A DNA stretch of 34,459 nt from contig CALHVP010000212.1 of assembly GCA_938038975.1 (NCBI GenBank), forward strand, positions 1-34,459. Reading direction: 5' to 3'. A model generated the notes under the pieces. That model was given only the letters and a program-made list of their open reading frames with translations. It ran no database searches and was not told the origin of the DNA. Both the position numbers and the translations under genes were made by a program. The DNA comes from an uncultured Maribacter sp. (GTDB taxonomy: Bacteria > Bacteroidota > Bacteroidia > Flavobacteriales > Flavobacteriaceae). Below, one piece after another: positions 2,799-29,627 of the stretch (positions within the stretch are counted from its first letter, which is position 1; each line of letters begins with the position of its first letter).

Positions 2799-3674
2799 TC
2801 AACGTAACGTAAAATCCAGCACATTCAAATTGGCCTCGTTAAAACTCAACAATGGTAATTCTCCATAGCTCTGCATTTTCCTGACCAAATCACGATGGAA
2901 TATTTTTTTTAGGAAACCCTGTTTTTCCCTTTCAAGCATAACGACCATATCCGCATTGACCTCTACTAAATAGTCGCGGAGAGATTCAAAAATATCCTCG
3001 GAAAACAATAGCTTAAATTCCAGAGATTGATAGTTAACCTTCTCTGCTAAAGCATTTTTAAACCATTCCATTTGTATCTCTCCCGCATATTCTTTCTTAG
3101 TAGAAATATGTACCACTCTGATCTTCGATTTAAAATGCTGGGCAAGCTCCACCGTTTTTTGAATGGCATACACATCTTCCTGCTCAAAATCAGTGGCATA
3201 AACAATTGTTTTGGGAGCGGCATAGCTAGCCTCCGAAGGGATAGCCAGTACAGGGCAAGCCGCTTTTTTAATCAGGCGCTTGGTAGTAGTGCCCAATATT
3301 GTGTCCTGAAAAGCACTTTCGCCTTTGGCACCCACTACAATCAGTTCTGCGTGCCAGTCTGCGGCTATCGCCAAAACACCATCTAGAATTGCCAAATCTT
3401 CTACTGGAGCGATCTGAATTTTCTTGGTCTTCCATTCCTGCCCTAAATGTGCTTTACAGAAATCCTCTAATTTGGTACGATGTGTTTTAAGAGCTTGTTT
3501 TCTCATTTCGGGCAAGTGCTCGATAATCATACCTTGGGTAACGATAGGATAGGAAAATACGTGTGTGACCACCAAACGTGCAGCTACCATAATACTTAAT
3601 TTTTGAGCATATTTTAATGCAGCAATAGAGTTTTTAGAATAATCGGTGGCATATAGAATTGTTTTCATTCTCAT
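2799..3674 (-). CDS. Universal stress protein, tandem UspA domains
   Basis: MKTILYATDYSKNSIAALKYAQ...GAKGESAFQDTILGTTTKRLIKKAACPVLAIP; close paralogue of the downstream USP. Alternative start at 3668. Confidence 0.92.
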   Translation of the reverse strand: MRMKTILYATDYSKNSIAALKYAQKLSIMVAARLVVTHVFSYPIVTQGMIIEHLPEMRKQALKTHRTKLEDFCKAHLGQEWKTKKIQIAPVEDLAILDGVLAIAADWHAELIVVGAKGESAFQDTILGTTTKRLIKKAACPVLAIPSEASYAAPKTIVYATDFEQEDVYAIQKTVELAQHFKSKIRVVHISTKKEYAGEIQMEWFKNALAEKVNYQSLEFKLLFSEDIFESLRDYLVEVNADMVVMLEREKQGFLKKIFHRDLVRKMQSYGELPLLSFNEANLNVLDFTLR

Positions 3675-3717: not shown

Positions 3718-3729
3718 TGACCTAGGTCA
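3718..3729. promoter_or_regulatory. Perfect palindromic operator TGACCTAGGTCA, divergent
   Basis: Centre 3723.5. Minus -7 TAAATTTA (3687-3694) and plus -7 TAGTTTTG (3753-3760) are each 33 bp away. Confidence 0.85.
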
Positions 3730-3805: not shown

Positions 3806-4167
3806 ATGAAGAAGTATATCCTCGCCATGACATTTGCTTGCGCATTGTTAAGCCTCAAAGCACAAACAGAACCGGTAGAGGAAGAAATAAACGTTGGTGC
3901 TGTTTTACAAATCGGTAAATCGGTTACCTATGGGTATTCCCATATTAATTTTCCCAGACCAAATTTTATAATCAAAAGGGGAGGTATTCTCAACTATAAA
4001 GACCTCTGGGGCGAAAAAGTAGTAGTAACCGAGGTATATCAAAATAAAAAAATGAAACCGAGGTTACCCTTGAACGAAAGAACGGAAAAAAGTTTTTTAG
4101 AAATTATAAGAGTGTTAAGGCCAAACTAGTAGAAGCACTAGCTAGCGGTGAACTTATGGTCCAATGA
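3806..4167 (+). pseudogene. Secreted small protein disrupted by a homopolymer frameshift (or phase-variable)
   Basis: Signal peptide MKKYILAMTFACALLSLKAQ. Frame 1 ends at 4129. After an A7 run (4046-4052) another frame continues as NETEVTLERKNGKKFFRNYKSVKAKLVEALASGELMVQ* to 4167. Confidence 0.6.
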
Positions 4168-4511: not shown

Positions 4512-4826
4512 ATGTCAAGACGAAAAAAGAATTACAGCGTAGAATTTAAGAAAAAGGAAGTAGAATTAAGCTTTGCAAGAGGTAGTGTAACTCAGATATG
4601 TGAGGAATTGGACATTCCTACTTCTGTATTGAGTCGTTGGCGAAGAGAATCTAATGAATATGGTGAAAATAGTTTTCCAGGTCGAGGAAAGCCAAAACTA
4701 ACGGATCAGCAACGGGAGATAGCTCAATTGAAACTAGAATTAAAAGATATGAAACTAGAGCGTGATATCTTAAAAAAGGCAATCAGCATCTTCTCCGCGA
4801 ACGACAGGAAAAATTTAGGTTCATGA
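4512..4826 (+). CDS. IS3-family transposase OrfA (HTH)
   Basis: MSRRKKNYSVEFKKKEVELSFARGSVTQICEELDIPTSVLSRWRRE...LKLELKDMKLERDILKKAISIFS. Confidence 0.9.
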   Translation: MSRRKKNYSVEFKKKEVELSFARGSVTQICEELDIPTSVLSRWRRESNEYGENSFPGRGKPKLTDQQREIAQLKLELKDMKLERDILKKAISIFSANDRKNLGS

Positions 4827-5022
4827 AGCATCATAAATTTAAATTTCCAGTTGGGAATATGTGTGAAATATTAGGAGTAAGCAAAAGTGGTTATTATAAT
4901 TGGTTAAAATCAGGCCCATCCAAACTATGGTTAGAAAACGAGGCTATATCTATTGAAATACACACTATTTTTAAGGAGAGCTTTGAAAATTATGGAGCTC
5001 CAAGAATTAAAGTGGAGTTATT
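4823..5022 (+). pseudogene. IS3-family transposase OrfB, 5' fragment
   Basis: MKHHKFKFPVGNMCEILGVSKSGYYNWLKSGPSKLW...ESFENYGAPRIKVEL; similarity stops near 5022 and the ORF then runs into unrelated sequence. Confidence 0.8.
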
Positions 5023-5064
5023 TTTTACTTCTCCCAATGCACCTAAAAAAAGAGTTGTTCAATA

Positions 5065-5787
5065 CTACCCCTCCCCGAACCAACGGCTCGGCTTTGTTCT
5101 TACAAGTTTGAATTTATTAATAGCATGTGCCCTTATATGTGCAATCATCTCTTCCACGGAATCGGTTACGAAAAGCAATTTCATGTCTTCCTTATCGATA
5201 CTTTCATTTTGTGCCATAATTTGAATGTGCTGGCAGAGTTCCTTGTGGTATTCAGAACCAAAAATGACAACAGGAAAGTCCCTAATCATCTTGGTCTGTA
5301 TAAGCGTTATAGATTCAAATAATTCATCCAATGTACCCATACCACCTGGCATGACCACAAAAGCATACGAATATTTAATCAACAAGAACTTACGTACAAA
5401 AAAATAGCGTATATCTATCCATGTATGCAAATACGGATTTCGTTTCTGTTCGAATGGCAGAATGATGTTACAGCCTACCGAAGGTCCTCCGGCCTCGTAG
5501 GCACCCTTGTTAGCTGCTTCCATAATACCAGGACCACCACCTGTCATTACTGTAAATCCCAATATTGATAAGGCAGCACCTACTTTTTCCGCTTGTTGGT
5601 AATAGAGATGGTCAGGTTCAAATCGAGCCGAACCAAAAACGGTAACGCAAGGGCCTAGAAAATGCATCTTTCTGAACGCCTTAATAAAACTAAACATAAC
5701 CCTGAACGTAAAAAATAGTTCGTTCAGACGCGATAGCGGTCCACTAAGGAATGGAGATTCTTCTGGACTTAATTGCTGCTCGTTCAT
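5065..5787 (-). CDS. LOG-family (TIGR00730-type) Rossmann protein
   Basis: VTVFGSARFEPDH...MTGGGPGIMEAANKGAYEAGG...VVMPGGMGTLDELFE. Confidence 0.88.
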   Translation of the reverse strand: MNEQQLSPEESPFLSGPLSRLNELFFTFRVMFSFIKAFRKMHFLGPCVTVFGSARFEPDHLYYQQAEKVGAALSILGFTVMTGGGPGIMEAANKGAYEAGGPSVGCNIILPFEQKRNPYLHTWIDIRYFFVRKFLLIKYSYAFVVMPGGMGTLDELFESITLIQTKMIRDFPVVIFGSEYHKELCQHIQIMAQNESIDKEDMKLLFVTDSVEEMIAHIRAHAINKFKLVRTKPSRWFGEG

Positions 5788-17808: not shown

Positions 17809-18186
17809 ATGCCAACCATTCTTCTTGTTGAAGATGATAAAACAATCTGTGAAAACACCATGGAAATTCTAGAGATGGAAGGTTACACAGTTGTCACGGC
17901 TAATAATGGCAAAAAGGGTTTCCAAAAAATAAAGCACCTTAGACCTGATCTAATTATTTGCGATATCTTAATGCCAGAAATGTGCGGTCTTGAACTCCTA
18001 GCAAAATTAGGGTCCCATCCAAAACTAAAAACTATTCCCCTGATATTTTATAGTGCCAGGTCCGAAAAAAAGGATATTAAAACCGGAATGGATCTAGGTG
18101 CTTATGATTATATCGTAAAGCCTTCCGACCTGAAAGACCTTCTGGCTTCCATACAAAAATGCCTTTTGGAACGGAAACCCTATTAG
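17809..18186 (+). CDS. Single-domain response regulator (CheY-like receiver)
   Basis: TILLVEDDKTICENTMEILE...DLIICDILMPEM...IPLIFYSA...GAYDYIVKP; no output domain. Confidence 0.92.
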   Translation: MPTILLVEDDKTICENTMEILEMEGYTVVTANNGKKGFQKIKHLRPDLIICDILMPEMCGLELLAKLGSHPKLKTIPLIFYSARSEKKDIKTGMDLGAYDYIVKPSDLKDLLASIQKCLLERKPY

Positions 18187-18541
18187 AAATTCTTTTTTCG
18201 CTTAATACAAAACATAAATTTGGTCTATACCCAAAACCAAAGAATTACTTCTCTATCCGATTGAAATACAGAGTAGTGGTTAAGTCCATATGCAATTTAT
18301 CATTAAATGATTTCAGTATGCATGAAGAATCAAACTACCTCGAGAACAGGAAATCCCATCTTCACATATACCACAACAATACAAAATCATTTTAGTGAGG
18401 TAACACACATACAGAGATACCCCTCTTCCCATGCATGAAAGTTAAAGGAAATCTAAAAATCGGAAAAGCATATAAAACGATGAACCTAGTTCTTAAGGCC
18501 ATCCAAAAATCCAACCTACCGTTGTTCCATTTACCTCTGAC

Positions 18542-18553
18542 TGATCTACATCA
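18542..18553. promoter_or_regulatory. TGA-N6-TCA operator (TGATCTACATCA) with no downstream ORF
   Basis: Centre 18547.5; plus -7 TACTTTTA at 18577-18584 (33 bp); followed by non-coding sequence and a terminator. Confidence 0.75.
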
Positions 18554-18587
18554 TTTTATAGTCATTACTCTAATTTTACTTTTAATT

Positions 18588-18718
18588 TATAGGTGGTCTA
18601 CTATTCTAAAATAGGGTCGAAGAAAGATTTGTAAATAAAGCCACACATAACGGGGGTTAAATCGTGGCCTACTTAAAAAGTGTTCAAAAAAAGTGAAGTT
18701 TTTTGGACACTTTTTGTT
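18588..18718 (+). ncRNA. Candidate Crp/Fnr-activated small RNA (~130 nt)
   Basis: Predicted start ~18588 from the -7 box; no ATG before the terminator; internal stem CTATT/AATAG (18601-18614) and GCCAC/GTGGC hairpin; terminator 18675-18715. Confidence 0.5.
18675..18715 (+). terminator. Intrinsic terminator
   Basis: AAAAAGTGTTCAAAAAA / TTTTTTGGACACTTTTT, 17-bp stem (one G-T) with a 7-nt loop. Confidence 0.8.
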
Positions 18719-18733
18719 AAAAAATAGCAGCAC

Positions 18734-18745
18734 TGATCTGCATCA
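18734..18745. promoter_or_regulatory. TGA-N6-TCA operator (TGATCTGCATCA)
   Basis: Centre 18739.5; perfect plus -7 TATCTTTG at 18769-18776 (33 bp). Confidence 0.85.
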
Positions 18746-18813
18746 TTTTAAAACCTAGTACTCAAGAATATCTTTGATGCTATAATGAATTGTTTAATCT
18801 AAAATTGAATATT

Positions 18814-19482
18814 ATGAAAACAGATGCAGAAATCAAAGAAGATGTATTAAATGAATTGGCATGGCAGCCAAACGTTGATGAGACAGAAATCGGCGTAATC
18901 GTAGAAGATGGAGTTGTAACCCTTAGTGGTGTACTAAACAACTATTCCAAAAAAATAGCCGCTGAAAAGGCGGTTAAAAGTGTTGAAGGTGTTAAAGCCT
19001 TAGCTGGTGATATAGAGGTCAAATATGGCGACAGCTTCAAGAAAACGGATAAAGAAATTGCAAAGGCAGTTGTAGATGCTTTGAAATGGAACTCATCGGT
19101 ACCCGAAGAGAATATCAAAGTGAAAGTAGAAGATGGTTGGGTTTACCTTTCAGGAGAGGTCAAATGGAGCTATCAAAAAAATGCTACAAAACGTGCAGTT
19201 GAAAACTTACTGGGTGTTCGTAATGTTATCAATAGTATTACCTTAAAGCAAGACGTAAAACCATTTGAGGTAAAGGATAGAATTAAAAAAGCGTTTGAAC
19301 GTTCTGCTGAAATAGATGCCAACAAAGTAACTGTTATAACTGATGGTAATACAGTAACCTTAAAAGGTAAGGTGAGCTCCATAAAAGAAAAGGAAGAAGC
19401 AGAAACCGCTGCATATAGAGCTCCAGGAGTATTCCATGTAAAAAACGAACTAAGGGTTCAATATTACACAGCGTATGCATAA
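18814..19482 (+). CDS. Triple BON-domain protein
   Basis: Three repeats like 'VEDGVVTLSGVLNNYSKKIAAEKAVKSVEGVKAL'. Start at MKTDAEIK (18814). Confidence 0.9.
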   Translation: MKTDAEIKEDVLNELAWQPNVDETEIGVIVEDGVVTLSGVLNNYSKKIAAEKAVKSVEGVKALAGDIEVKYGDSFKKTDKEIAKAVVDALKWNSSVPEENIKVKVEDGWVYLSGEVKWSYQKNATKRAVENLLGVRNVINSITLKQDVKPFEVKDRIKKAFERSAEIDANKVTVITDGNTVTLKGKVSSIKEKEEAETAAYRAPGVFHVKNELRVQYYTAYA

Positions 19483-21391: not shown

Positions 21392-22165
21392 TTACTCTGA
21401 TAGCGTATACCTATTATATAAACTAGCCTCAAGGCTCTTGCGCGCATTTTCTAAAAGATGTCGTACCTGTTCAAAGCTTTGGCCGCGTATCATCGCAATT
21501 TCCTCAAGTGTAAATTCGTATTTTGTCGCTAATTCAAAGACTGTTCGCATGGGCAAGGGCAGATGATATAATACCATATCCGTATGATTTCGAATGTTCT
21601 CCTTACCAAGATCTTTGTCCAATTGATACATGATTTCCTTTTTATCCTCTTCCACAAAAACATGGTTGAGAACACGGTGGCTCCTATGGTACAATATATC
21701 TTCCAGCTCCTCTAACATAACTCCATCCCCGTTACCATTAGTACTAAATTCATCTTGCATTTCATCCCATTCGGGTTTTGCAAAAACATCAATATTTTCA
21801 AAAAAATACACATTGAACTCCTCATCAATACTAGTATCTTCCAAAAGCGCATTGACATTTTTGAACAACCATGGATAAAGATCCTCCTTGTCTTTTACCT
21901 CGTCAAAATAGTTGTAAGCCTCAACTAACAGTTGATCTAAAAAATACTCCACATTGTATTTTCTTTCAGGGAGTTTTCCTTTTAGCATAACCGTATTCAA
22001 CCTATCTGTAATGTATCTTTTTACTTGGGGTATTATTTTTAACAAGAGCTGATTGAAGGCGTTCATTTTACCTTTGGCATGGTAGGTATTTAAATCATTA
22101 TAAGTACATGTCACGTATATGCGAAACTCCTTTTGACTTTTGTAGTTGATTATTCTTTCTTGCAT
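21392..22165 (-). CDS. Divergent sigma-70-like regulatory protein
   Basis: C-terminus LPMRTVFELATKYEFTLEEIAMIRGQSFEQVRHLLENARKSLEASL resembles sigma region 4. Start set to MQERIINYKSQ because the ORF-track start lies inside the operator. Confidence 0.6.
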   Translation of the reverse strand: MQERIINYKSQKEFRIYVTCTYNDLNTYHAKGKMNAFNQLLLKIIPQVKRYITDRLNTVMLKGKLPERKYNVEYFLDQLLVEAYNYFDEVKDKEDLYPWLFKNVNALLEDTSIDEEFNVYFFENIDVFAKPEWDEMQDEFSTNGNGDGVMLEELEDILYHRSHRVLNHVFVEEDKKEIMYQLDKDLGKENIRNHTDMVLYHLPLPMRTVFELATKYEFTLEEIAMIRGQSFEQVRHLLENARKSLEASLYNRYTLSE

Positions 22166-22219
22166 TAGAACGAAATTAATATTGGTAGCAAAAATGCAAA
22201 CCAGATACCTTGTGCAAAA

Positions 22220-22231
22220 TGACATAAATCA
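22220..22231. promoter_or_regulatory. TGA-N6-TCA operator (TGACATAAATCA)
   Basis: Centre 22225.5; minus -7-like CATTTTTG at 22189-22196 (33 bp). Confidence 0.75.
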
Positions 22232-28964: not shown

Positions 28965-29627
28965 CTATAGTTTTAAAATTTTTATATAGTTGCGCCCAAT
29001 TTTTAGTTGCCCCATATTTTCCCATTTTTTCAATAGGCGTGAAACGGCGACCCTAGAAGTATTCAACTCATGGGCCATTTTTTGATGCGTTGTATAAATA
29101 ATCTTGCTTTTTGACAAATGCACTTTATCGCTGAGATATTTCCGCAATCGCTTTTCTATATTTGAAAAAGCAAAACTCTCCACAACTTCCAATAATCCAC
29201 TTATTCGATATTGGTAATTGTCGATAACAAATTGACGCCAACCCTTATACTTAATTAACCATTCCTCCATATTCTGCGTGGGTATCAATATTAGTTTGCA
29301 GTCAGTTTCTGCAATTACCCTAATCTCGCTTTTAACATTTCTGGTGCCGATGACAAGTGCATTAGCGCAGGTGTCACCATGGCTCAAATAATATAGCAAT
29401 AATTCGTTTCCCTCGCTATCATCTGTCAATACCTTTAAAACTCCAGATATTACCAAGGGAATGGATTTGATATAATCCCCGATTTCTAAAAGTTTTCCAC
29501 CTTTTGAAATCTCTTTATAAACGCCCTCTGTTTGAATATCATGCATCAAGGCATCTTCAAATTCATAGCCATTGTGCTCAATGAGCTGTTTGACCATATA
29601 TATATTTTCTAACGTATTGAATCCCAT
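28965..29627 (-). CDS. Crp/Fnr family transcriptional regulator
   Basis: cNMP-fold N-terminus (KGGKLLEIGDYIKSIPLVISGVLKVLTDDSEGNELLLYYLSHGDTC) and Crp HTH (THQKMAHELNTSRVAVSRLLKKWENMGQLKIGRNYIKIL). Confidence 0.92.
   Translation of the reverse strand: MGFNTLENIYMVKQLIEHNGYEFEDALMHDIQTEGVYKEISKGGKLLEIGDYIKSIPLVISGVLKVLTDDSEGNELLLYYLSHGDTCANALVIGTRNVKSEIRVIAETDCKLILIPTQNMEEWLIKYKGWRQFVIDNYQYRISGLLEVVESFAFSNIEKRLRKYLSDKVHLSKSKIIYTTHQKMAHELNTSRVAVSRLLKKWENMGQLKIGRNYIKILKL

Follow-up and report, generated by a model that had tools for sequence, protein, structure and literature searches.

The short promoter-terminator unit that separates a response regulator gene from a BON-domain gene in this Maribacter contig is very probably what remains of a tandem BON-domain gene once present in the same slot, and any RNA still made from it is most likely a functionless by-product. 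The window, meaning the whole stretch of DNA that was analysed, is 34,459 nucleotides long and is an entire contig from a draft genome with close relatives in Maribacter. Within it, the response regulator gene (17809-18186) and the triple-BON gene (18814-19482) are separated by a spacer of about 630 nt. The features of this region are as follows.

17809-18186, plus strand: response regulator receiver gene (Pfam Response_reg, E 1.4e-29), with an orthologue at the same place in L043 (a Maribacter metagenome-assembled, or MAG, contig) and in L017 (genome G011); the upstream neighbour that fixes synteny.
18542-18553, plus strand: Crp/Fnr-type operator TGATCTACATCA of the orphan promoter; the module is kept with one mismatch at L043:2518.
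18577-18584, plus strand: -7 box TACTTTTA, exactly 23 nt past the operator; predicted start at about 18589, by the box position rule of PMC9723704.
18590-18647, plus strand: probable, degenerate trace of a lost BON copy's final codons, a weak assignment from local alignment to the end of the L043 pseudogene.
18648-18674, plus strand: 3' segment beginning TAACGGGGGTTAAATCGTGGCC, common only to L043 and to L042 (M. orientalis, genome G019), where it stands behind a decayed BON gene.
18675-18715, plus strand: terminator hairpin of 17 pairs with a 7-nt loop, kept in L042 and L043.
18734-18776, plus strand: the surviving BON gene's own operator (at 18734) and -7 box (at 18769).
18814-19482, plus strand: surviving triple-BON-domain gene (Pfam BON, E 1.2e-46, in three stretches), with orthologues that are 85-86% identical.

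A sequence-only reading of this DNA had already placed the promoter module, the 17-bp-stem terminator and the BON gene's own operator and box at these positions, and had described the stretch between promoter and terminator as lacking an ATG. These observations hold: the gap between operator and box is 23 nt, the hairpin folded with its neighbouring bases is far more stable than shuffled sequence (z -5.8), and ATG is absent from 18502 to 18776. A simple terminator scan did not list the hairpin, the probable reason being that its U run is part of the stem.

The promoter at 18542-18584 is a member of a genuine operator/promoter class found ahead of stress-type genes. When the spacer was shuffled 1000 times, a module like TGATCTACATCA-N23-TACTTTTA arose at most once. 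Genome-wide, a scan for TGATNTNNRTCA and TANNTTTR separated by any gap from 18 to 28 nt returned 17 operator/box pairs versus none in a reversed control, and the gap is exactly 23 nt in 13 of the 17 (binomial probability ~5e-10 after allowing for any gap). The module shows the TGAY-N4-RTCA operator and the fixed distance to a -7 box by which Crp/Fnr-type class II promoters are recognized, and its operator centre is predicted at -41.5, where class II activators bind. This position, the start at about 18589 and an RNA of about 134 nt are all predicted by taking the -7 box as -12 to -5, the span of the flavobacterial box (PMC9723704). Open reading frames behind exact-spacing modules include DnaJ-like, thioredoxin-like, glycogen-synthase-like and BON proteins, as named by sequence inspection. 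In 11 of these 13 modules an open reading frame lies no more than 100 nt away, the exceptions being the 18542 module and L112 (G000:C61:67582-67624, minus strand). The sequence ahead of the L112 module reads like a decayed WG-repeat gene. The strict 23-nt operator-to-box spacing of this Crp/Fnr-type stress regulon in Maribacter can be used for mapping the regulon.

The regulator of the 18542 promoter is perhaps the Crp/Fnr-family protein encoded at 28965-29627 in the window, which scores best against the CRP model but falls far under its cutoff. Elsewhere in the window, the operator TGACCTAGGTCA at 3718-3729 is followed on each strand, at a distance of exactly 23 nt, by a TAnnTTTR box, a shared divergent promoter flanked by a Usp-like gene on the minus side (2799-3674) and a 107-aa open reading frame on the plus side (3806-4129).

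The history of the slot can be read from relatives. In the L043 contig, gene order matches that of the window (histidine kinase, response regulator, slot, BON gene, XthA), and the slot opens with a module at 2518 that has one mismatch and the same 23-nt gap; none of 1000 shuffles gave a module as good (at most one mismatch). Next comes a stretch alignable to the tandem BON gene of Maribacter sp. ACAM166 (L045), followed by TAACGGGGGTTGAGTCGTAGCC and the same terminator. The BON gene in this L043 slot is decayed, being recovered as three linked tblastn pieces against the L045 tandem BON protein (E 1.3e-9) that are interrupted by stops and frame changes. M. orientalis likewise carries a decayed BON gene (E 3.6e-7 to the L045 BON protein) followed by the same segment and terminator; its promoter is degenerate, with two mismatches, a match reached by chance in about 1% of cases, and no response regulator gene was found beside the locus. 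In ACAM166 itself, intact tandem BON genes occupy the slot, and the 3' region of the intact copy L045b differs from the shared 3' segment. In G011 (L017), the response regulator gene adjoins the BON gene without this promoter-terminator unit. Among the fetched loci, the only relative of positions 18150-18600 is a short promoter-like match in L006.

The distance from the -7 box shrinks across these loci, from 710 nt to the stop codon in L045b, to 269 nt to the 3' segment in L043 and 63 nt in the window, which points to progressive erosion of one tandem copy; because the BON gene is decayed in two relatives, the direction is better read as erosion than as gain. Between the window and L043, identity is 79% for the 3' segment and terminator, 78% for the BON promoter and 82% for the BON coding sequence, but it drops to 33% in the spacer that precedes the operator. 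Maribacter genomes repeatedly contain BON copies that are broken, with further broken matches in G012:C51, G029 and G030. At G012:C61 133608-142460 (loci L018, L026, L033, L036, L039 and L040), at least one of the ACAM166 tandem BON genes is broken by stops.

Within the window spacer itself there is no BON remnant at the protein level. At the nucleotide level, alignment to the decayed end of the L043 gene starts at 18590, with an anchored p of 0.02 for L043 and 0.26 for L042, a weak signal from a short putative remnant. A relationship between the 5' part and the leader and start codon of a BON gene was also considered and was rejected, the similarity not being significant.

Taken with the relatives, these remains suggest that deletions took the leader and nearly all of the coding sequence of the tandem BON copy. 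What would be left is the Crp/Fnr-type promoter at 18542-18584, probably a degenerate tail of last codons at about 18590-18647, and the 3' segment and terminator at 18648-18715. The promoter is probably still active along with the rest of its regulon, in response to its regulator, and polymerase would halt at the old terminator to yield an RNA of about 134 nt. Such a short RNA may still be made from the 18542 promoter; a transcript is plausible because a stretch without an open reading frame lies between a regulated promoter and a terminator, and the promoter is of a real class. The presence of this RNA is explicable without any function, and a function for it is unsupported. A lookalike of an sRNA gene, consisting of a promoter, a short non-coding stretch and a terminator, can arise by simple deletion in a tandem gene array, and such deletion relics can mislead sRNA prediction that relies on a single genome.

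The sequence-only reading had instead proposed a dedicated Crp/Fnr-activated regulatory RNA, here about 134 nt long and acting by base pairing with target mRNAs, an interpretation that now appears distinctly unlikely. It could draw on an exactly spaced promoter of a real class, a strong terminator, the missing ATG frame and a whole-RNA fold that looks more stable than chance (z -3.15), but once the terminator is removed the fold is no better than shuffles (z -0.45); all structure beyond chance in the predicted RNA thus resides in the terminator. The stem-loops that had been pointed out fare unevenly: the predicted fold contains the GCCAC/GTGGC stem, the CTATT/AATAG hairpin appears only when the terminator is included and is absent when the body is folded alone, and both are broken in the relatives. 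Across the three sequences, pairing is kept in 60% of cells for the first proposed helix, 80% for the second and 98% for the terminator. No compensatory pair occurs in the RNAalifold structure of these three sequences, and the covariation score of the whole structure was reached by 65 of 500 shuffles, three sequences being few and the evidence accordingly weak. Searches for homologues also went against a dedicated RNA. Rfam gave no match in the window at gathering scores, and neither DNA searches nor a covariance model of the 3' half, a check that the sequence-only reading had called for, found a complete homologue in 36 Maribacter or 301 family genomes. Strong matches in the genus were confined to M. 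orientalis (G019) and the window itself. Across the family, the DNA and covariance searches returned nothing beyond short or weak matches, and those weak covariance matches that were inspected proved to be A/T-rich terminator-like hairpins without the TAACGGGG segment. Literature searches on this locus found nothing. The comparison of relatives, which had been named as the means of refutation, goes largely against an sRNA: promoter and terminator are conserved, but between them the relatives have a BON gene, intact or decayed, and conservation as RNA, in sequence or in structure, was not found.

Other readings grant the relic some use. The promoter-terminator shell might be a regulatory RNA being born, its regulon-controlled transcript having gained or now gaining a function, which we consider unlikely. 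The window operator is intact whereas that of L043 has a mismatch, and this could hint at upkeep, which would speak against a mere relic; the comparison covers three sequences that carry the 3' segment, one of them (L043) a MAG contig. Some constraint on the 3' segment is also possible, judging from its conservation at about the level of coding sequence. A functional 3' UTR or 3'-derived RNA of the former BON gene (the TAACGGGGGTT segment and terminator), kept after gene loss, would make sense of the identity to L043 and of the segment being the best conserved non-terminator part across all three sequences. However, only three Maribacter loci carry the segment, in none of them is it preceded by an intact BON gene, and the 3' region of the intact copy L045b is a different one. 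The conservation of the segment also equals that of nearby sequence, as recent common descent predicts; retention of such an RNA is accordingly quite improbable. A very short peptide without an ATG start, for example from the 13-codon GTG frame at 18593 just past the predicted start, is scarcely credible, given that very short GTG frames are frequent by chance and that, by inspection of alignment A1, the frame is not common to L042 or L043.

The element resembles decaying bacterial pseudogenes left from tandem copies, which likewise are syntenic with decayed and intact copies in relatives, have a coding part marked by stops and deletions, and keep recognizable regulatory ends; it differs in that almost only promoter and terminator remain, which gives the relic the look of an sRNA gene. 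In enterobacteria, FnrS is an FNR-activated sRNA. Like FnrS, the element is a short unit with a Crp/Fnr-type operator at about -41.5 and an intrinsic terminator; unlike FnrS, it has no Rfam match and is not conserved as RNA, and its regulator need not be FNR, as the Crp/Fnr-family protein in the window scores best, though far below cutoff, against the CRP model. Rfp18 of Flavobacterium psychrophilum, an independent sRNA, has wide conservation within its genus and folds strongly (PMC9723704). The element shares with Rfp18 the (here predicted) status of an independent transcription unit without an open reading frame in a flavobacterium, but it is neither widely conserved nor strongly folded.

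Two further features of the window lie outside this locus. At 4512-5224, two open reading frames resemble, by inspection, parts of an IS3-type transposase, the second apparently shortened. Adjoining the second BON gene, the protein encoded at 21392-22225 on the minus strand has weak similarity, under curated cutoffs, to sigma-70-type factors.
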